A stretch of 64,000 bases of DNA from NCBI GenBank assembly GCA_950295325.1, contig OX485806.1:15438001-15502000 (forward strand), written 5' to 3'. Origin of the DNA: Polytrichum commune. Its lineage: Eukaryota > Streptophyta > Polytrichopsida > Polytrichales > Polytrichaceae. How positions within the stretch are numbered: position 1 is the first letter of the stretch; each line of letters starts with the position of its first letter. A program made the translations under genes and the position numbers. Of this stretch, positions 17,488 through 61,462 are shown piece by piece. The notes beneath the pieces were generated by a model. It was given only the letters and a program-made list of their open reading frames with translations. It was not told the DNA's origin and ran no database searches.

Positions 17488-20400
17488 TCACAACCGTCTC
17501 CTACTACGTACTTCATCTTCTCGGTACCCACTTCCTCCATAGAGCTCTTGATGAGCCTCTCCCCTCACAAGCCAATTCTCTCCAGTTCTATTTTTCGGTT
17601 CAGCAGATCTATTATTCCCACGTATCTCCTTCAGTGGTGAATCTGTTTCTTGCACCACGGCAAGCATACCACTGGCTTCTTTTGTTCTAAATGCAGGCTC
17701 ACTAGCATCTGAAATAGAGAACCAACAAACATGTGCATTAGAACCACATCAAACACATGTCATTCAGGGTTTAAAGTTTAGAGCCAATCTCCAATCACAG
17801 AACAAGTACGACTAAGGGCGGGTTTACACTAGGGTCCAAGACCAAAACAACTCCAAAATCAAGCGACCCTGTTGGTCTAGAGCAGAAATAGGGTCGGGGT
17901 CCAAGGTATGAAATAATGAAGTGACCCTAATGTGGATTCACTTTCCCGCCAAATCTCAGTGGTCCCTACCCAAGAAAATACACCCCTTAGTTTGAGAAAC
18001 CGATCTTCAAGCTCGGGTCCACTCTCGAGTCCGAAAGTAAGGTCCATTAAGGGGTGTTCTGGACCCCAAGTTTTTGGAACCCGGACCCTGATGGAAATCC
18101 ACCCTAAGGTCTAGCTTGAGGTTTACATTGCAAAGAATTCATACCCAGATCTAAAGACGGTATATGTTGGAGGTCCAATCTCCCCAAGTACACAGGCTCT
18201 TTCACAGGCTTCTCCTTCACAGTTTTGGCTGCTTTTCTGTCTCGACTAATCAGCTCCAACCTCCGGAAAAACTCATACTCTTGTCGCACGGCTTCATCCA
18301 AAAAGCTGTTGGAGGTCTCCTTCCTTTGGTCATCGCTCCAACCCTCCTCCCTCGAATCATAATCCCGTTCTGAAAGAGTAGATGTATCCGAATCTGTCAT
18401 CCTTCCATTCATCTCCGCATCCTCCCCGCCACCACCACCTCCACCATCATCCCTTTCAAGACTTGCAAGTGCAGTTTGTGCCTCTTTCACGATGTGCGAA
18501 CCCGCCCTTGTTTTCTCGACGATTCGGTTGATCAACATCCGACCAAGCATCTCTTCAGCTTCCAGCACAAGATTTTCCTCGCCAAAAACATTGATGTCGT
18601 CATCAACCAAATCTAAATTACACTGCTCAGACTCAGATGCACGCGACTGGCACTCCCAATCAGACCCCGTCGCAGGACCGGGCGTCTCGCCTTCCATCAA
18701 GCCCTCCCATCGCGCAATTTTGTCAAGAACGGTAGGGCTTAAATCCCCTGACCTACCCTCCAAGCACAATGGCCGCTGCGTGGGCAAATTAAACCCTAAA
18801 CCTAAACCCGGCCCCTCCCGGGATGATGGCTTAAACAACTGTTGTCGCACCTTCACCTTCTCCTTCTCGACAGGCGTGTTCAACCCTGCTCGGCCACCGC
18901 CTTCCCAGAACAAAGCGGCTTTCCGATCCACCGGAACTGTGCCGCCAGAATTTGCAATTGGCCTTGTCGTCCCACTCGCGTCTTCGTACTTAACCGAGTA
19001 GTGCATATCTGAATCCGACATCTCTGAGACCGATTTTGACGACTCGAGGGTTTCCGTATATTTTACAATCGCTGTACAGCTCTCGGCCTTCGGAGAGGCC
19101 GGCCCCTCCTCAGTCTCGACCTTTCTCACGAGGATGGAATTGCCCGCATCCGAGTTCCACGAGGTTCTTCGGCTTGGATGGGGAACCAGCAATTTCCCCC
19201 TGCGAAACCAGCCACCCGTGTCGCCATTATTTGTTGTAGCCTGGAAACTGGCTGGATCAACCGAGTGATCCCAGCCATCAGCAAGAGAGCCTGTGCTTGA
19301 GTAGTCACAAACACTCGGCGTTGCGCTACCCATTTCCGAGCTTTCGGGATAATCAGATTTCTCCAACCCTTGAACAGAATCAATCAACTGCCTCTCAATT
19401 TGCGCGTTGTCCATTACTTGACTGCAGTCCCTCGAGGCTTGTGTGGTCGTTGCCTCAGTATGTGAGGAGGACCCAAATTCTTCATCGTCTATCATAGACT
19501 GCAAAAACTCATTGCAAGTTTCATCCCCAGCTGGAACAGTGATACCTGGAGTGGCGTACCTCTCGGTATCCCTAGGATTCTGCAAATAACCATCACAACA
19601 ATAGAGTTAATCTTAAAGTGTGGCAATGAAGTGAAGTCGATTTCCCCTTATGGTCCCTTGTTCGAGGGTAACCGGAAAGTCTTGGAGGGCTTCTTTGAGT
19701 TTTAGGCACCAACATGTTTCATATTTATATAACTAAAGAATCTTCTCATTTTCTTTGCCACCTATAAGCACGTGTCTCATCAAGGTACTCTTTGCTTCTC
19801 TCAGCACTTGTGTACTCCCCAAATAAAATCAAACTCAAGAAAAGAACTCAAAAGTTTCTCAAAGTTTTGTAGCCTTGCAATAAAAGCAAGAAGAGTTTGC
19901 TCCCTTGTTTTCTTTAGGTTACAAAGTGTTTTGGTCCCCAATTTAGGTGAATTTACCGTAAATTCCAATGTGTATCAAGAGGTGAACCTTTTAGGCACTC
20001 TTGCAGCAAAGGAAGTGGACAGTGTTCTTGATCAGTTCCTGATCATGAGAAATATTTGTGAGCAGTAAGTGAACACAACAGACTTATCCTTTCTAACTCA
20101 ATGGAGTTTTTCATCAGGAGTTGGTGCACTGTGATTTTCCAATAGTTGTTTTGCATACAATATTAAACAATCATTTCCACTTGTGGTGCATGCTTGGAGG
20201 TAGAGTTCGAATTTGAATGAAGAGCAACTAACTTCAGTTCATTGACGACCAAACTCGTTTTAGTACCTCTTGGCATGCCAAAATGATGAGTTCAACCCTC
20301 AACAAAACAATGTAGAATGTTCTTTGTTCAAACCTCCACACTACCTCCAAGCATGCACCACAAACTTACCGAACATGGAACGTACCATATGCAATAACAA

Positions 20401-23400
20401 CCAACTCCAGACCAAAAGTTATATTGAGTTAGAGGATAACTCTAATGGCTCGCTAATTGTGATGATGTGATTACTCATAAGTCTCATTAAGTACCTGTTT
20501 CACATCTGTCTGCAAATCTTCCTTTGTTGTCTCCACCTCTCCTGATGTTACTACCACAGGGGTATCACTCAATCCACCTGGCCCTGTAGTGTTTGTGTCA
20601 GCCTCACTACCACTTACCCATGTACTTGCTCCCTGAAGAGGGAAGTGAAAACTTTCTTGACCTTCAAGACTGTCAATGCCTTTCACACCAGTCTTCTCAT
20701 CAACATTCTTTTGGTTGGGAGTTTTGGACCTCTCAACCAAAGTCTTGGCAGCAATTGTTTTCCCTGGAATCGGAATTTCATCACCTGCCAGTAGAAAAAT
20801 GTCAGACAAACTGAAGCCGCCAATAGAGGGTGGACAGCTACTGATTACCAAAAAAAATGTTCATAGCAAACATTTGATGACAACGAGCAGATGATTGAAC
20901 TTCATTGAACTCCTTTGACCTCATGGATTTACTTGTTAAGAACTAAATGGAAGCAAGACAATAGCTTATATCCTTGAATTTCCTTTTCACTACTACAGTA
21001 AACTTTTTTACACATTGCACTTTCTTGATAGGGCATGACGTAGTGGTGGCAAAAGCAACTGGGAGGGACAAAGAAGGTGCCTGAAGTAGAGGTAAGAGAA
21101 CCCTCCATCAACTGTCGCACTCGATCCTTCCACACCTCAAGCTCCTCCTCTTTACTCTGCAACTTTGACTGGGCTCCTTCCAGCTCCTCCTCTAACTCAG
21201 TAAGCAACTCTTCTTGTCGGGTTGCCTGTTTAAAAGCAAGCATTCCAGCCTCCCATGTCAATGCCTAGTACTCACCATTGCCTCAGCTACCTCCCATGCT
21301 GACTAACATGAAGATGGTACCACTCAAGAAATTTATTAGTTACAATAAATGATTAATGCAAATTGGCAACAATTTACTCAATTCATGTCACCAGAAAGAT
21401 TCCTGACCTGCACTTTGCGAAGAAGTCGGGCAAGCAATCGTGGTGAAACAGCATAATTGTTCAAGCATGCAGGTTGTGCAGGGACTGAATAGTCATCATC
21501 CTCTGAACTTTCCTCTAATCGGGCAGGTAGGCCTGCCACCTTTAAATCACCATAAACAACAGATGCAACACCATCCATATCGAGCTGCGGATACCAACGA
21601 GATAAATAAGGCCATGAAGACAAAAGATATCCCAGAACTCAAGAGCACAACTCCAGCTCCTGCTAAAAGCTAACATAGTCATGATCCAAGCAAATACCTG
21701 TACATAGTGTGCTTGCTACCAATACACTAAACATCTGATTTAGTGGCATTAAAATTGGTGTGCCATGTAAAATTGAGTAGTCTTCATGAACCAAGCAACA
21801 AGTGTCATATGACACACTCTCTTGTTGCCACCCAGTGTTTGCAAGACAATTAATTTGGGTCAATGATGGATAGTGCGGGCCACACTAAATCAGATGTTTA
21901 GCACAGTGTTCATCTTAAAGGCTATATAAAAGTATAATGTGCCTAATTAGCCGAACCTCATCTAAGACTGAGTACTGGCTGTCCAGTACAGAGTCACCCC
22001 CGGTGAGCTGATCCAGTTCAGCCTCCAACTCTGCTTCGAGCTCAGCCATCTGATCCCCTTGATCCTGTGATTCCAGGTCATAACTTACGGTTCCATCACG
22101 AGTACACCTAATTGCTCCTTGATCCAATCTCCCTCCAGCCTGTGACACGTCAAAGCAAGCAACAAAATAAGAGCAGATGTTGGTAAGCTCACATTATAAC
22201 CCACACCAGTGTGCAGAGAGGCATTACAACTTGCATAACCTTTCTTTGATACAGGCAGAGCAAGCTTGAAATCAATAAATAAAAGTTGATAGCTTACCAA
22301 GGATGCAGAACCTCCCCTACTTTCAAGCTCTAGCTTGAGTTTTTGCATCTGAATTTGAGCCTCATCCAACAACTGGTTCAATCTTTGAACTTCAGCTTGG
22401 TGTGCCTCACTTGCTGACTGGACCCCAACACCCACTCCAAAACCGAATAGCAAGGCCTCCTTTGAGGACAAGCTCAGTTCTGCAAAACAATAAAATAAAG
22501 AAATAAATGAGAAAGGGCTATGAACAACAATATATATACTTCGTTCTGAGGCTATCAGCTTCATGAAGATGTCAGTGTCATGCTGATGGATGCCACAGAA
22601 TGCCAATGATAAAATACGGTTCATCACTAATGCAACTGAGAATGTAATCTCAATTGTCACAAGACCTACATTGAAAACGATGTGAGATATGTTCTCGCAG
22701 GATTGCTTGGAGTTACTACATCATCAATGCACATGTAGGCAGCAGATTTTCTGGAACGGAGTAGGTCAATTCTTTCTCACTATCAAAAATACTAACAGAC
22801 GTCTTTCAGCACAACCATAAAAGTATGAAGGTGCATGTAAGTGCATATTGGATAGATCAATTCAAAGGCGTAGAGGTGGAATGGAAAGCCAAAAGTAGGA
22901 ATCACCTTCCACATGCAGCTTGTCACTGCCTTGATCAGATCCCACTGATAGGTGCTTAACATCAGAAATTTTCCTCTTCTTCAAGATGACAGGCAGAAGC
23001 GACTTCTTCCATTGATTGTTACCAGGACTACCTGCTGGCATTTCAACAGCTGCCTGTTTTGGTCCTGCTTCATCTGCATCGGTGTTACTGTCCACCTTAT
23101 TTGGTGCTAGCCTTGCTGCAAACCCCTTGAGCACCTTTTGAAGGTTGGGAAGGCTAACAGAGCCAGTTGATGAGCTTCGTCTCTCAGCCCCTACTGCAGA
23201 ATTGTTATTGATTGGGGTGACATCGGGTGACGTCGGGACTCCATTGATGTAGCCTATCATTTTAAAGCCATTTTCAGGTCTGCCCCTTCCATCTGCTGGA
23301 GGGGAGAAATTGAGAGGACGAGAGACCTGCCTACCCCGATCTCTATCATTCTCATCAGTCAGCTGAGCTCTTAAACAACTCTCCAAGGACGATACAGGCT

Positions 23401-24748
23401 TCGGAGAGGCCCGTAACCCTCGAACTTTTCGTGCCAAAGCTTTGCCTCGACTGGCCTTACTTGGAGTCCTTGAACGTCTCGTGAAGCCTCCTCCCCCCTT
23501 GACTTGTTCCTCCTCATCAGGTAGTTGAGTGAAAAATTCCGCAGCATCAAAGCCTAAGAATGGATCCGACTGGCCCATTAATCCCCACGCAAACGCGTTC
23601 GGGTGCATGTCAGAAGGCACATTCTCTTCTCCAATTCCATCCTTTATCCTCTTCCCAGCAGAGGTGGCCCCCCAAACAATGTCGTTTGCATCATTGAAAC
23701 TGTTTCTTCGAGAGTCCTTCAAGCGCTTCCCAGAATTTGTGAAAGATAACGATACCTTCCCTTTCCCTGACATCTTTCCTCCCTCGTCAGGTGTCTTGGG
23801 ATCTTGATCACAACTACACCTGCTTGTTCTCCTCCAGCCTCTACGTCCTGCTGGTGTCTTCTGTGCCTGGAACTTATACACAGTCCCAGAACCTGGCACA
23901 CCAGACAATCTTCTTAGAACAAATTCCTTACTCGCAGGAGACGTGACCTTCAATGCAGTGTCGTGCTGATCCTCGCTCACATGCGAATTGTTGCCCTTGT
24001 CCTCTGAAAGTGGGGAAGCTTCAATAACCACAGCAGCAGTATGCTTCGCCTCTGCTACTTCCTCCTCAAACTTCTTTGCAAGCTGAGATGGATGTAGGAC
24101 AATTTGATCTGAAATCTTGCACTTGATATCATCAGATTGGCATTCAGGTGCTGATGAATCATGTGCATAACAGGTTAGCGGAGCAGCAACTTCTTCTTCA
24201 GGTTTCTTAACAGCAGGGGAATTATGCGCAGACAGAAATGGCTTCACCAGTATAGGCTCCTGAACATTTCCGTCACCACAATCACCCAAACCTTCCACCT
24301 GGCTCACTAAATCTGCGAGGCAGGGCGCAGAGAATGAGGATAACCTACCACGAGCTGCAAACCTTGACAATGGAGGACTGTCCTTGAGACTACTCTCACT
24401 TCCATCAGCTACATTGTCATAGTCTCCCTCTTCATAAATAACTTCTTCTCTCGAACCACGCCGTGGGCTGATACAGCTCCGGATAATATCATGGCTGGTA
24501 CCTCCACAGAATCCAGCTGCGGTCGAGGCGTTGTTCGCTTTGCCATGCAACTTCTCTAGCTCAAGCAGCTTCTGGTACTCTTCCAGATGATTCGTATCTT
24601 CGAGATCCTCCAGCACAGCCCTCCCTTTAAGAGAACCACCATGATCATAGCTCAGCCTTCGTGAGAATACGCGCGTTGGCAGAGACCTAGTCCTTGATAC
24701 CTTGGAAGAATTTGGAGATCCTCTGGGTGATGTTGATCCATACGGGGT
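17488..24748 (-). CDS. POLAR-like polarity scaffold protein, 5' end missing
   Basis: The closest match I recognise is the plant POLAR / POLAR-like family. These are cortical scaffolds that, in Arabidopsis stomatal precursors, gather GSK3-type kinases before asymmetric division. Eight exons join in frame: 24748-22906, 22479-22298, 22139-21957, 21584-21408, 21225-21102, 20784-20495, 19579-18145 and 17708-17488, giving 1,484 residues. The donors at 21102 (GG/GTTCTC) and 18145 are the least certain. Family marks are a Ser/Arg-rich N-part, SLESCLRAQL near 23,370, and a short GFGVGVGV segment followed by a coiled coil (exon 2). Next come MAELEAELEAELDQL (exon 3), NYAVSPRLLARLL (exon 4), and a coiled coil ending in EEELEVWKDRVRQL (exon 5). 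After that block about 650 residues continue, with Gly9 and acidic stretches, in a part I do not recognise. Family members I know are much shorter. Exon 1 starts in phase 0 and has no early Met, so upstream coding sequence is missing. Confidence 0.75.
17816..18104. mobile_element. Tourist-like (PIF/Harbinger-type) MITE in the last intron of the POLAR-like gene
   Basis: A 289-bp element is bounded by TAA direct repeats (17,813-17,815 and 18,105-18,107). Its inverted ends match: GGGCGGGTTTACACTAGGGTCC on one side, and the complement of GGACCCTGATGGAAATCCACCC on the other. A 3-bp TAA/TTA duplication with GGG-starting ends is the mark of Tourist-like elements. No coding capacity. The duplication lies 37 bases inside the intron and supplies the first in-frame stop met by a transcript that keeps this intron. 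Confidence 0.8.
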
Positions 24749-25894
24749 CTGCACCAGTGTCAAACAAACCCACAAACAAACATTTAGCTCCAAATAGAAG
24801 CACTACACACTTAAGAAAAGTGTTGCCACAACTTCCTATCACTTGCTGTGCCTAAATAGAGTACACATGAGTCAAGGGTTGAGATGAGATGACCATGCTT
24901 TCACTTTCATAGTTTACTCTCGACCCTCTAAAGAGTCGGAATGGTCTGTGACCGGAAAATGACCTAACAGTTGGGATGACGCACAAGTAATGGAACTTTT
25001 CTTCCCTTAATCAAAGTCAGCACTCAAATGCATTTCTTGCAGTACAGAAATTCACCTCTCTCTTGCTGTGCTTGCCTCCCATTCATACCGGACAGGTTGA
25101 ATTTGGTTGAATTGACTGCCCCCTTGGTTTGCATCTGCAAGGGCAACTCCCAAAGATGTGTCAATACCCTGTGCACACATTGAGGTAAACAGACAGACAG
25201 ATAGACAGACAGTCAAACTAGAGAATCCTTCCTTCCTTCCAGGAGTTTGAGGTCAAGCACTTTGACCACCGCCATCACCAGATAACCTAGAGCCCCGTTG
25301 TGTGTTTCCTCAACACTCCCACATTGAAGCACACTGAACTTAACCCTCGTCAGATGCTCTCAATGTGAGCACATGTATGCCAATGTCTTGCTAACCTAAA
25401 AAGTTAGCAATTTCAGTTCCCCCATAGAAGGCTGCTTTTGGTGCCACAACAGGAAGCTCACTCTACTACATCGGACCGAAACACTTCCCCTACCTCCCCA
25501 TTTCGTCTCCTCCGCCAGAATACATTGCAAAAGCTTCCACTTTCAGGAACTTCAGTCACCTGCTGGCTGAGCTCCAATGCTAAGCTAAGCTACACTAGCG
25601 GACGGACAAGGCACTCTGCCCACGGAAAGAAGAGCCAGAAAGATAGATACTTGTTTGTGATTCTAGCCAGCTTCGCCCTGAACAACAGCCTGCACAATAC
25701 CCTGAACAACACCCGGGGGGGGACACCTGTGCATCGTACGGTCTGACACCGGAACTGGAGTCTGCCACCATCGCCCCAGAAGCCCAAAAATTCCCTATCC
25801 CTACTACAGACTCATCACAAAATGTTTAAGATATCATTGTGCCACTGTAGTGGGCATGATTGCTGATTGCCGCCCTTGGGAAGGTGACCAGTTG

Positions 25895-54465: not shown

Positions 54466-57400
54466 TCAATAGTAGGTCTGCTGCTGAGCTGCTCCTTGAA
54501 GAGTATATCCACCAGCAGCTTGTTGTGGAACTTGTTGCATCACACCATACTGAGCACCATAGGCGGGTTGAGTTGGGTAAGAGGTTGCTTGAGGCATCTA
54601 TTAAAGGTTCACATTAAACATGTCAGGTCACTGGCAGCCACACTGTGGTGCAACCAGAATTAAAATTATTGATATTTTCCCCCCAATGCACCTACATTAG
54701 ACATCTCCCAGTTTCAACACCACTGTGGAATTGAAGGTAACATCTCACCTCTTGAACTGGAACAGGAGGGTTGACCATGTACTCTTGATTTACAGCATAG
54801 CCAGTGGCATAGTTATGTGCTGGAGGAGCATATTGGTTGCTGTACATTTGAGTAGTAGGTGGTTGCTGCTGTGCTCCTGCCTGACCAATTGAACCTGCAC
54901 GTCCATACAAACCAAGTGGGAAGACATCAATTACTGATTTGTTCAATGTGATCAAATCATTGTGAAAGTTCTGCAATTGCTAGAAACTGAGACGTAATAG
55001 TCAGAAACTAAGCTCTGAGGCCATAAACTCATAATAGCAGTAGCCTTGTTTAATTCGACTCATAAACGCCTGCAGCTGCAGGCTCTCCTCAGCAGATTGC
55101 AAGAACCCCATACTCACCAACAAAATGTGATCCTTAAGGATCTGAATTGTAAAACTAATGCCAGGATATAATGGAGGGACAACAATCATAAACACAAATT
55201 TCTGAAGTCCAGTATCTTACCAGTTGGAAGTGCAGCTGAAGGCTGAGGAGCTGCATCATAAATTGAATAAGGGGTTCCCCCTTGAGCTGGACCTCCCACC
55301 ATTGTAACAGGCATGCTTGCTTGTTGTGTAGGGACATGTTGTGTCTGACCCATGCTGTGGCCTACTGGTACTCCTTGAGTTTGTTGCACATACGCATTGT
55401 ACTGCTGTTGTTCTTGGGGACGTACAATAGGTGCCCTGTCTTCCAGAAAAATTACCAATTATTACCGATCATCCATGTGACAATTTAATGTCCTAAAATA
55501 GAATCCTAGAGCAGCACACGAAAGAATCAACAAATCTAAACATGGCACAACAGCTTAACCAAGTAAGTGTCATGACATACTCTGAGATAGAGAAATTAAG
55601 CTCCACAGAAAACTACAACAGACAGGTTATAGCACAAACCTGGCTGCATCATTGTACATTGGTTGCTGCACAACTGGCAACCTGTATCCAGATTACACCT
55701 TGTTAATTGGTTGAGACACAACACATCTGATTGATGCAAATTTGGACAATACATCTGTCAAGAAGTTGAAATAATTTGACTGCACACTGCACCTCTATTC
55801 TTATACTTGATTCTACAGCAGACAAGTAAAGATAGCCTAAACAGTTTGAGGTCTATGCCATTCTCATCTTCCCACCCACTGAACCGAAACTCATGAGCTC
55901 AGAATAGCCACAGTACATACACACTATTACTTAATCAGAGAAATTGTGAGAGGAGTGTCAAAAGACAACCTTGGAGCCTCGGAATACATTGGCTGTGCAG
56001 GATAGCCCTGTGCACCTCCAGCTGGCTGCATTGAAACCTGCTCAGGGGCTTCTATGCGTTGGCGAGGAAGACCTCTCTGTGCATCTACAAATCTAGGGTC
56101 TTCTTCCTGTAAGGTACTTAATGGAAATTAGTAAAGGTTCCATATAAAGGAAGCTATTTACAATGACTTGTGTCACATCAGTAAGTATACAAATATATAT
56201 CCAAGACCATTACTGTAGTGAACAGAGGAAGTAAATAAAATTGTACCATGGAAGTAAAAGGTCGCTTCATTCCTGCCACTTCGTACTCGCGATTAGGAAC
56301 ACCATAACCTCCAGGAGGTAACTCTCGGCCACCATAACCAAGTGCAGGAGGTGGAAGCTCCCTACCACCATACCCACTCCCACCCATATCACGGCCACTG
56401 TAGCCTCCACCCAGACCTCCACCACCAACATAATCTCTCCCTCCAAAAGCTCCACCTCCATAACCCCGTCCACCTTGGATTCTATCATACCGCTCAGCAT
56501 AAGTTTCAGCATGGTTTGGCATCCCACCACGGCCCCCACGGAATGAAGGATTGTATGCACCACCTCCCCGTCCTACATACCTATCTCCATAACCAGTACG
56601 ACCCCCTCCTCCACGGGGAAAGTCATTACTGTAACCACTCAAAGGTATTGTGTTTGGGTTGCTTGGATAGCCACCGCCACCACCACCCACAGCCCCACCA
56701 CCAGCACCCCCTCCAAAGTACATATCATTCCCACCATGGCGCCTGTTTCTCCCAGGTCCAAAACCCCCAGCCCCTCCATAAGAATTGTTGTATGTGTCAG
56801 GGGGAGGCCTCCAATCATCATTAGACCTCCCACGCGAATTACGGAATGGTCCACCACCGATGCCACCAGCAGCACCACCACCAGCTCCACTCTTACCCTT
56901 GCGACCGGGCCGATCGCGGTCACCAAACCTCTGTCTAGATTGGCCAGGTTTTGTAAATTCAGACTCTGGAACCTTCTCCATAATTTTCTCAAGAGCATCA
57001 GCAGCTGCCATTTGCTTGGCTCTTGCCTTGTTGCGGCCAACCCCAAATCCCTTGGTTGGAGGACCTGTGGCTCCCCCAGCAGCCCCTCCAATTATGGCAG
57101 TTACTTCAAATGGACCATTTGTTTCTGCTTTTGTCTCATAGTTGACTTCACAGTGGTTGCGGGAGGCATATTCATGCAAAAGAGAAAGAGGTGTTTTGTT
57201 GTGTAGCTTCTGATCCTTGCGGAGTCCTTCAATAACCCTGTGAACCTTAGTTTTCTTGTGCAACTCATAATCATCAGGAGAATCTGAACCAAACCCACAC
57301 ATTGAACACTCAAACTTGTCAAGGGTGGGCTTTGTTACAATTTCCCCGGCTACAGGTGCTGCCTGCTCAGCTCCTGCAGAGTCACCAGGAGCTGCAGTTT

Positions 57401-60400
57401 CTCCATCTCCATCAGGAACTACTGGTGCAGATTCAGGTTCTTCTGTGAGATCAGGCTTCTCTTCATCTTCCACTCCTGATGGATGGTCTTCTTCCGTTGC
57501 TTGATCCCTCAACGCATGCAAAAGCTGGTATCTTGAATCCATCTCATCATGACTGCGTTTTCCTCCACGTCTAGTTTTCCGATCTACCCTTTGTGTCCCT
57601 CCAGCTCCACGAGCACCACCTAGCCTTCCCTGATTTTCAAAACGAGGGACACTTCCCCAACCTGGTCCTGCAAAAGACAAGTGATACATAATAGTGGTAC
57701 TGTCAGTAATAAAAATACAAGAGAGTGTCAGAATTCCAAATAAAATACTTACTTATTTTCCCTCAGAACAACAGATAATCTTGCTGCAAGTCGTACACTT
57801 TACTTCAAACTGTCACATACCATCAAAAGGCCCTGGTCCTGATCCTGGTCCTCCTCTTCCAGAGCGGCCAGGACTTGATCCCACTCGATGGTCACCCCGA
57901 AACGCTGCAGGATATCCTCCTCGAACTCCTCCTTTAGCAGGTTTGCTTTTTAATTGTGGCTTTGCAAGCATGACCTTCATCTTCATCTGTCAAGGACAGA
58001 TCCAGTCGTAAGAGAAGTACAACATTTTGGCAGTGATTGGAGATCCACAGTAAAGCAAAAGGACCAATCCACCTCATGATAATGCGCAAAGATATGTACC
58101 TTTATGTCTCCATCACTGATTTCAGTATTGTTTATGGCTTCAATGCATGCCATTGCAGCATCACGTTCTAAATAATTTACAAATCCAAAATCCTTTCGCT
58201 TCGCAGATAACATATTACGGGCTAGAACTATGCGTTCTATTTCTCCAAATTTCTCAAAATGTTCCTTCACCTTCTCTTCATCCCATGTGGGAGGCATTCC
58301 ATCAACAAACACAGACTTCACCTGCATCACACAGCCATCACAGCAAGTAAATAATCAGATTTGTATGTGTTCCAGAGAATTGTGCTAACCAAAACGCCAC
58401 TACATTTCTTGCGAACAGATGAAATAGCATGTAACATAAGAAAAGAATGCCCTTGCAAAAAAGAATGGATGTCTTCACAATTGAATGTACCTGGGACATC
58501 GTATCCTCATCTGGTTCATTTAGTGGCTGTGCCCATGCAACTTTAGCTGAGCGTTCAGTCCCAAAGATAGCATCAGCTTGTTGTAGCCGGCGGAAAGCCC
58601 TCAAAGCCTCCTTGTGTGTGCCAAACTCAATAAACGCAAATCCACGGTTGACACCCTCAAGCTGAGGATCTTCCATCAGTGTCAATTCCTCAACGGTTTC
58701 AATTCCAAAGGTTTTCAATGTCTCCAATACCTGCAATCAAATACCCAACATGATGCACCACATGAGAAATGATTTGAGTAAACTGTTGCAAGTCCCCAAG
58801 GCCCTTCTCCACCAATAATATTATCACTTTTTGGTGTGATCACTACAAGATTTACATCCATGCAAACTTTGTACTCCAACCTAGGTTACATGCACTTCAA
58901 CTCCCAATGACAAAGCTGGCACTCACATTGTCCTTTTTCCATGATTTGCTGATATTGCCAAGGAACAGTGTGTCATTTTCCTCGCTTGGCAGAACCCCAC
59001 ATTCGCGACCTCGGATCTACACAAACACAGTTGAACTTTCAGTTTCAAGACGGAGGCAAATTGTCCAAGTCACAAAATTCCTGCAAAGCAGATTGTCCAA
59101 CCCTGAGGTGAACACACCAGATAAAGTTCAACATGTTAAAGTCCACACAACATTCACGTCATCACTTGAAGTACCATACCAACACAACCAATTGCCATCC
59201 TTAACCTCCTGGCACTACATCATGCATGGCAATGAAAACAATAGCCACCACATCACTAACTAACTCATTTGTACCCTGCAGATGGTAAAGATTCAGCTAC
59301 TGCTCATCTTCAATTACAAAATGATATCTCTAATCTAGTTACAGAATCCCTGTTGCACCCATCCAGCTACAGCTAAACTCAGATATGCTCAAACATTTAC
59401 AAAATGTTTCTCCCACTGTCCATCAAAAGTCCAATACAGCAAGACTCCTAACCAATCTGACACTAGCAACCACAGATCAACTACCAACTCATATCCAGCA
59501 ATCACCCAGAAAGTAAGCTTTTTCAAATCAGGTGTGTTCTTGGTATGGTACCCTTATTATTTAAAGGTTGGAAAGGGAGGGGCTAGACATAGACAATATT
59601 TTGTAAAAATAGCAACAACACTAAGATGCAGAAAGTACTAAAAGATCACAATGTAGAAGAGTGGCTGACCTCCACATGCTCCAATTCTTCAGCAGCCCGC
59701 TTTGCCATCGCTGTAGAGGAGTAACGAATGAAAGCATACCCTTTGTTTTTTCCAGTCTGTGGATTCCGCATCATTCGCACCTCAACCACCTCGCCACACT
59801 TCTCAAAAACAGACTTCAGGTCCTCATCTGTCGTGTCCTTATCAAGTCCGCCAACAAAAACCTCCAATTGTTTGTGCTTCCGCCTCTCAGAGATCGGCAA
59901 TGAGTGTTGTGCCTCAACATCATATTCTCCTACCTCTCCATTCAGCTCTTTGAGGTCATCCATATCACCATCTCTATCTTCATCCTTGTCCTCATCATAT
60001 TTCTCCTCTCCCCCATCTACATTGCACAGATCATGTTAGAGTAGCGTCTAGGTTTGAGGTTATGATCATCAGATAGATTCCTGTAACACATCATTCACCC
60101 ATTTGAATCACTAGAAAGAAGAAAGTTGAGGAATTCGTGGACTATACTTTCAATTTGGATAATAAAGCTACACTGCGTGGAAAGGACCGCCGTTATCTAG
60201 CTTAGCGCTCCATTTCACCTTCAAGCATTGTTAGATCACTACTATTTAACATCTAATTATGAAATGGTAATATAGCAGAGACACAGGCTACAAAAATCGA
60301 TTATCACTGTGTGTCCTCACCATCGCCCGCAAACCAAGAACTGCTCCCCTGAGCAGATATCTACTGTATACACATCATCCGCAATAACCCACAACAAGTG

Positions 60401-61462
60401 CGGATGGGGCATCATTCATGCATTCCGGATGGCAAATCCACAGTAAAACGAAAATCATCAACTTCACCCACCCCATCAGATAAACAAATGGTCGAAGAGG
60501 CATAAGTATCACATAAAATCAGATCACATTGAAATTTTAAATAATAGATAATGAACAAAACAAAACTACTTCTCACCTAAGAAATCATAATGATCACCAC
60601 CTATGTCCTTGTCAGCTTGGTCCATGCTGTCTTCCATATCCCCTAGAGGAACCTCAACACCTTCTTCCATTTTCTGCGCATCGTAATCCACCTCCATTTT
60701 CACAGGCTCAATTGTCTCCGCTTCCTCTTTCACAGCAACCTTTGATGCAAGTGGCTCTTCGCTTAAAATTTTCTCGGCCTCACCCTCAAGGCTCTCTGCT
60801 GACACTAACTGCGATTCCACCTTCACATCAAGAACAGGCACTTTCACTTCTTCATCCATAGCCATATGCTGAGGTTCGACATCGACCACAACAACAGAAG
60901 ACTCCGTCACCACGACCGAAGTAGTCTCAATTGACGAGGCACTGAGATCTGTACATACATCAACCAGAGAATGTTCCTCCGTGTGTTCTAGTTTCGTTAC
61001 AACCTCCTCGATTATTGTGGCTTCCCCATTCGCAACAGAAGCAATGACAGGCTCGTGTTCTTCTTGTGGTAGTCCCATAACTGCAGCAGCATTCTCTGTT
61101 CCTGATCCTGCTATACCTTGACCATTGGTGTCTAAGAACCTACTACCCTCCGAGGCACTATATTGGAGCTCAGTAGTAACTTCTCCTTCCACGGTTGCCT
61201 CCGTTTCCATAACTGCCACTTCCGTCGTCGTCTTAGTCGTTATCGTCTCCGTTAGGGTTACAGTTTCCGTCCCCGCGACATCGACCGAGAGTGCTGATGA
61301 TGACTCTGTCAACACAGCCTCCTGTGTTTCTACAACCTGTTCTTGCGCTTCCGCCTCGGCACTCGCCGCTTCTGCGGCCGCGGCCGCGGCTGCGGCAGCA
61401 GAAACCCTACCTCGCCCTCTCCCTCTGCCTCTTCCCCTTCCCCTCCCCGTCCCTCGCGCCAT
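54466..61462 (-). CDS. hnRNP R/Q-type protein: three RRMs, C2H2 zinc finger, dsRNA-binding domain
   Basis: Twelve exons join in frame for 1,347 residues: 61462-60577, 60016-59670, 59016-58927, 58730-58491, 58321-58100, 57986-57821, 57667-56247, 56106-55970, 55681-55640, 55435-55221, 54894-54749 and 54597-54466. An RG-repeat start (MARGTGRGRGR) and poly-Ala are followed by an acidic region. RRM1 (about 346-418) has LEVFVGGL and KGYAFIRY; RRM2 (427-511) has TLFLGNI and RGFAFIEF; RRM3 (522-600) has SVFVDGM and KDFGFVNY. A basic RKTRRGGKR (about 680-687) may be a nuclear signal. A zinc finger (771-793) and a dsRBD (about 809-883) come next, then a Gly/Arg-rich region to about 1,124 and a Gln/Pro/Tyr-rich prion-like tail. 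The RRM part matches the plant family of Arabidopsis At2g44710 and LIF2, nuclear RNA-binding proteins. The finger plus dsRBD are the odd part. The ATG follows GC-rich leader and opens the longest frame. Confidence 0.9.
56970..57308 (-). other. Zinc finger plus dsRNA-binding domain within exon 7 of the hnRNP gene
   Basis: 57,308-57,240 encodes CSMCGFGSDSPDDYEL then HKKTKVH, a C-x2-C-x13-H-x5-H finger of the type often found in RNA-binding proteins. 57,197-56,970 encodes a dsRBD: a first helix TPLSLLHEYASRN, a strand region ending GPFEVTAIIGG, then GFGVGRNKARAKQMAAADAL. The last part holds the GxG turn, the Lys/Arg cluster that contacts dsRNA and the Ala-rich second helix. The strand loop has an extra Gly/Ala insert. 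Both lie in the same uninterrupted 1,421-nt exon, so they are not an artefact of splice choice. Confidence 0.85.

Follow-up and report, generated by a model that had tools for sequence, protein, structure and literature searches.

The minus strand of the window (the whole stretch of 64,000 nucleotides analysed here) carries a gene whose product combines a core of three RRMs with a finger-like motif, one divergent double-stranded RNA-binding domain (dsRBD), a Gly-rich tract and a Gln/Tyr-rich tail, in this order. We consider it rather probable that this hnRNP R/Q-like protein joins contact with single-stranded RNA to contact with a nearby hairpin or a protein partner, and that its order of parts, which resembles that of animal A1CF, had an independent origin.

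Gene model and RRM core

The gene comprises 12 exons, with its ATG at 61462 and its stop codon at 54466, and encodes 1347 residues closed by a single stop; the length given in the initial annotation was thus obtained again by manual assembly. All 11 introns are of the GT-AG type, and the reading frames agree across the whole model, although this agreement is partly built in, because the splice sites were chosen by hand from the reading frames, without a gene finder or transcripts. The features are as follows (window coordinates).

60577..61462, minus strand: exon 1, with the start codon, an RG-rich and Ala-rich N-terminus and a long acidic region (residues 1-296); donor GTGAGA (splice model, composition)
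59670..60016, minus strand: exon 2, with an acidic tract and the larger part of RRM1 (splice model; best Pfam RRM_1 stretch 348-417)
58927..59016, minus strand: exon 3, end of RRM1 and start of RRM2 (splice model)
58491..58730, minus strand: exon 4, RRM2, ending at MSQ|VK, an intron position common to the LIF2-type paralogue (splice model, paralogue comparison)
58100..58321, minus strand: exon 5, RRM3 (splice model, Pfam)
57821..57986, minus strand: exon 6, final strand of RRM3 and RG-rich linker (splice model, composition)
56247..57667, minus strand: exon 7 (1421 bases), with a basic and an acidic linker, the finger, the dsRBD and the Gly-rich tract (splice model, composition, 524-residue open frame)
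57240..57308, minus strand: C2H2-like finger C-x2-C-x12-H-x5-H, residues 771-793 (motif spacing; under Pfam cut-offs)
56985..57188, minus strand: dsRBD PF00035, residues 811-878 (Pfam, genome scan, best structure model, shuffle controls)
56259..56966, minus strand: Gly-rich tract with RGG, 33% Gly over residues 885-1120 (composition)
55970..56106, minus strand: exon 8, with a rather weak donor, GTTGTC (splice model)
55640..55681, minus strand: exon 9 (42 bases), the least certain of the exons (splice model)
55221..55435, minus strand: exon 10, Q/P-rich (splice model, composition)
54749..54894, minus strand: exon 11, Q/P/Y-rich (splice model, composition)
54466..54597, minus strand: exon 12, Q/Y-rich C-terminus and stop codon (splice model, composition)

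A search of the assembled product with Pfam and NCBIfam bore out the predicted succession of three RRMs and a dsRBD in an hnRNP R/Q-like protein. RRM_1 (PF00076) matched three tandem stretches (E = 1.1e-44), and the best of the nine NCBIfam matches at E ≤ 1 was TIGR01648, hnRNP-R-Q, with 174.5 bits. The cut-off of this model is 317.85 bits and is missed by the gene product as well as by the LIF2-type paralogue described below (215.6 bits); for this reason, we call the product hnRNP R/Q-like and do not file it as a member. Among structures in the PDB, the RRM core matched poly(A)-binding protein first and hnRNP Q (6kor) second. Animal hnRNP R/Q proteins possess an N-terminal acidic domain (AcD/NURR), which is a Pfam family. 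The N-terminal region of the moss product is likewise acidic by composition, and the Pfam scan of its first 341 residues did not find AcD/NURR, returning only DUF5320 and EBNA2_Core, both under their cut-offs.

In the initial annotation, one continuous exon had been said to join an RRM-containing hnRNP to the finger and the dsRBD. This does not hold, as exon 7 is devoid of any RRM and joins only the linker, the finger, the dsRBD and the Gly-rich tract. Since the RRMs sit in exons 2-6, their union with the dsRBD in one protein depends on the splice between exons 6 and 7. The idea that exon 7 may be a cassette exon was set aside, because the frame breaks at once when exon 7 is left out in silico, and a stop is reached at residue 655.

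The block formed by the finger, the dsRBD and the Gly-rich tract is flanked by short motifs that resemble each other, KRSHDEMDSRYQ at residues 687-698 in exon 7 and KRPFTSMEEDPRF at residues 1118-1130 on the border of exons 7 and 8. Their similarity is perhaps due to chance, or perhaps a remnant of an insertion or duplication.

The finger-like motif and the divergent dsRBD

The interval 56970..57308, which had been assigned to a finger and a dsRBD, does encompass both: read on the minus strand, it starts at 57308 with the codon for Cys771 of the finger and ends at 56970 with that for residue 883, which lies five residues beyond the end of the dsRBD according to Pfam. As for the C2H2 finger, the spacing C-x2-C-x12-H-x5-H is present at residues 771-793, but the motif remains below every Pfam cut-off, its best score when scanned by itself being 16.2 for zf-C2H2_jaz (cut-off 22.6), and therefore the call rests on the motif. 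When the whole protein was shuffled 100,000 times, the wider pattern C-x2-4-C-x12-H-x3-5-H turned up in 8 of the shuffles. Zinc fingers of the JAZ/ZFR type bind dsRNA; the finger of the moss product resembles them in its spacing and in its best-matching model, and differs from them in being single and in its score below the cut-off.

Pfam recognized the dsRBD in the full protein at residues 811-878 (dsrm, PF00035; cut-off 23 bits), with a score of 27.2 bits and E = 5.7e-6; the score was 33.9 bits when a segment of 87 residues was scanned alone and 31.1 bits in the whole-genome scan. None of ten controls obtained from the 87-residue segment (one reversed, nine shuffled) gave a dsrm match at E ≤ 1. 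Loquacious, Staufen and PKR domains led the PDB matches (best E = 2.7e-4). AlphaFold2, run without an alignment on a segment of 90 residues, yielded five models, of which the best (mean pLDDT 72.3) showed the succession helix-strand-strand-strand-helix and the remaining four were poor (pLDDT 51.9-58.0); the model of the 151 residues comprising both finger and dsRBD, also obtained without an alignment, was too poor for use (pLDDT 51.5).

The domain had been described as canonical, but the alignment with eight other dsRBDs of the same genome reveals that it is divergent. Apart from the gene's own dsRBD, the scan of the genome gave ten PF00035 matches, and these eight remain when the two weakest, which have no locus, are left out. 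Contact of dsRBDs with dsRNA involves a GxxH-like motif in the β1-β2 loop and a basic KKxAK-like motif at the start of helix 2. In the gene's dsRBD, the β1-β2 loop is shortened and the column of the contact His is a gap, while His is found in 7 of the 8 other aligned dsRBDs (six from three loci with two dsRBDs each, plus one more); the remaining one, that of locus L007, likewise has no contact His. A Gly/Ala-rich insert precedes strand 3. Among the usual contacts of a dsRBD, the Glu of α1 is kept, as is a basic stretch at the start of helix 2, NKARAK, in which the first and last lysines of the KKxAK-like motif are conserved and the second is replaced by Ala. A HMM constructed from the eight other dsRBDs gave the gene's dsRBD 4.6 bits, which is not significant.

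Relatives in the same genome, in other plants and in animals

Whole-genome scans covered 407.8 Mb in 64 contigs. PF00035 had at least 11 matches, among which the gene's dsRBD ranks ninth by score. The finger-dsRBD module, for which one candidate appeared at first look, matched only itself in the genome at E ≤ 1, and its search against viral contigs gave 10 pattern matches with no relative among them. The possibility that the dsRBD was recently copied from some other domain in the genome was set aside on account of this single match and of the low score of the eight-dsRBD HMM.

A second hnRNP R/Q-like gene with three RRMs, the LIF2-type paralogue, is located at C1:17.06-17.07 Mb. It shows 37% identity to the gene over 267 aligned residues, the comparison being based on its first 432 residues only, since the seventh exon as modelled is out of frame. 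Its RRMs and acidic N-terminus follow the LIF2 layout. The intron between RRM2 and RRM3, at MSQ|VK, is common to the two genes, whereas the other introns of the paralogue are placed differently. Neither tblastn nor a small HMM found a dsRBD in the 9.9 kb locus of the paralogue, and none of the at least 11 PF00035 matches of the genome falls there; the small HMM is a weak test taken alone, because it also misses the gene's own dsRBD. To judge from these sequence comparisons, the genome seems to hold both RRM-only and dsRBD-bearing hnRNP R/Q-like forms.

The initial annotation described the flowering-plant relatives as proteins without a dsRBD. A survey of 2004 lists At4g00830, At3g52660 and At2g44710 under hnRNP R/Q, in its available text, as "RRM, 3" only, with no dsRBD or finger entered for them, and its table does give extra domains for some other genes (PMC545797). 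However, the words dsRBD, DSRM and double-stranded occur nowhere in the survey, which may not have looked for such domains, so that its silence is weak evidence (PMC545797). LIF2 (At4g00830) is described, in the part of its report available, as a protein of about 495 residues that combines three RRMs with an acidic region and a Gly-rich RGG tail (PMC3031606). It is therefore similar to the gene product in its three R/Q-type RRMs, acidic region and Gly-rich RGG tail, and differs in length (about 495 against 1347 residues). Its authors name At3g52660 and At5g28390 as its closest relatives and, in the same part, do not name At2g44710 (PMC3031606), so that more than one Arabidopsis gene is a candidate orthologue of the gene.

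Among the matches listed in a search of titles and abstract openings of the open-licence literature, no plant hnRNP R/Q protein with a dsRBD was found. Plant DRB proteins (HYL1/DRB2-type) share PF00035 with the gene product and, to our knowledge, have no RRM. They carry two dsRBDs each, according to the available text of PMC5435087, against one in the gene product.

In animals, DND1, RBM46 and RBM47, like the RNA-editing cofactor A1CF, possess RRMs followed by a dsRBD. The comparison with A1CF made in the initial annotation agrees with the literature, which assigns to this protein, in the text at hand, three RRMs and one dsRBD, the latter qualified as putative (PMC11011687). The likeness to the A1CF/DND1 type consists in a dsRBD placed after R/Q-type RRMs; the gene product differs by the finger-like motif that stands before the dsRBD and by the long tails, Gly-rich and Gln/Tyr-rich, that come after it. 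The DND1-type dsRBD model, PF14709 (DND1_DSRM), has no match in the gene product; it is unlisted for the dsRBD segment at E ≤ 10, in a scan whose filters drop most matches above about 0.1.

Across the whole genome, PF14709 has a single site of match, located on C2 close to another dsRBD. At this place (G000:C2:23.055-23.058 Mb, loci L007 and L042), the PF00035 and PF14709 matches lie about 1 kb apart, and it is possibly an RNase III or Dicer-like gene.

Proposed mode of action and competing explanations

In the mechanism we propose, the three RRMs would select single-stranded parts of an RNA, the finger-dsRBD unit would add a contact to a nearby hairpin or to a protein partner, and the low-complexity tail would gather the protein into RNA-protein assemblies. 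This last role is suggested because the tails are Gly-rich (33%) and Gln-rich (18% over residues 1120-1347, by composition).

The part assigned to the dsRBD is where this mechanism meets its strongest competitor, to which we give somewhat less than an even chance: the domain would have lost its contact with dsRNA and would serve as a protein-binding (dimerisation) domain, so that the protein would bind only single-stranded RNA through its RRMs. The β1-β2 loop without the His that 7 of the 8 other dsRBDs of the genome keep, and the Gly/Ala-rich insert ahead of strand 3, speak for this reading, and changes in RNA affinity of plant and animal dsRBDs have been traced, in the available text of PMC5435087, to the β1-β2 loop and part of α2. 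Against this stand the basic residues R, K, R and K retained at the start of helix 2 together with the Glu of α1, and the dsRBD of L007, which lacks the same His. With the contact His missing and the loop shortened, a confident claim of dsRNA binding is weakened, and such binding may be weak or absent. A far less probable objection, which we regard as very unlikely, concerns the protein itself, and takes the model as two genes or a mis-join: an hnRNP with RRMs only would end in intron 6, and a separate gene for the finger, the dsRBD and the Gly-rich tract would begin in exon 7. Retention of intron 6 in silico does lead to a stop at residue 653, which makes an RRM-only isoform conceivable, and an in-frame ATG (Met693) is found about 40 codons into exon 7; but the 153-base intron 6 has a good donor (GTATGT) and acceptor (TTTTGCAG), the frames are consistent through the model, and the loss of exon 7 destroys the frame.

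Regarding the origin of the domain order, the initial annotation had left the choice between an ancestral form and an independent parallel. An ancestral state with later loss in Arabidopsis, in which the hnRNP R/Q proteins of plants (or of plants and animals together) originally had three RRMs followed by a dsRBD, appears rather unlikely to us. It would account for the same order in animal A1CF (PMC11011687, from the text at hand), and the RRMs-only entries of the Arabidopsis R/Q genes in the table of PMC545797 fit a loss, although a gain in mosses predicts the same. It is opposed by the failure of PF14709 to match the gene's dsRBD and by the restriction of this model to one place on C2 in the genome. 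The weight of this point is small, because one model is concerned, and PF14709 is no mark of animals only, since a review on liverworts also names it among the domains of its figure on the miRNA pathway (PMC9291395, in the part available). The mismatch to PF14709 thus leans to a parallel, while being weak evidence, and we favour, without proof, an independent origin: the order of parts is more likely an independent parallel of A1CF/DND1. In a stronger form of this reading, the A1CF/DND1 plan was assembled independently in a lineage of land plants and extended by a finger, which gave one protein reading single-stranded sequence beside duplex; we put this form forward tentatively, and would wager against it sooner than for it.

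If it is true, an A1CF-like plant protein could tie the hnRNP-type handling of mRNA to precursors that are structured or give small RNAs, a coupling with no counterpart listed for the Arabidopsis R/Q genes. Should transcripts confirm the order and should it prove conserved, plants and animals would have combined the same two RNA-binding modules, either by convergence or very long ago; should it turn out to be widespread in mosses and already recorded by automatic annotation, it would be of modest interest. The paralogue without a detected dsRBD offers a natural comparison within the same genome. Mosses allow gene targeting.

Some further observations concern the rest of the window and of the genome. 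Rfam and tRNA scans of the 64-kb window gave no match. Between positions 1 and 48000 of the window there are 8 open frames of at least 130 residues, and none of the 5 that were scanned had a Pfam match over the cut-off. Two open frames on the minus strand, 18104-19606 (500 residues) and 22862-24802 (646 residues), had no Pfam match at E ≤ 1, and probably represent exons from one or two plant genes that are as yet uncharacterised. The contig G000:C8 (146,561 bases) carries psaA and psaB side by side with open frames, and is probably the plastid genome; together with six contigs of 42 to 78 Mb, it makes a set of about seven chromosomes and a plastid likely. PsaB scored highest against the entries 8htu, 6l35 and 7ksq (1700.6-1704.7 bits), followed by 9lut (1667.2 bits) and then by scores of 1630.3 bits and less, among the matches listed (60 of 83). 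The three leading entries are from Physcomitrium patens, and a moss is the most probable source of the genome. Finally, dynein heavy chain gave 13 matches at eight separate places of the genome. Dynein heavy chains go together with motile sperm, which flowering plants and conifers do not have, and the matches are therefore read as those of a plant with motile sperm.
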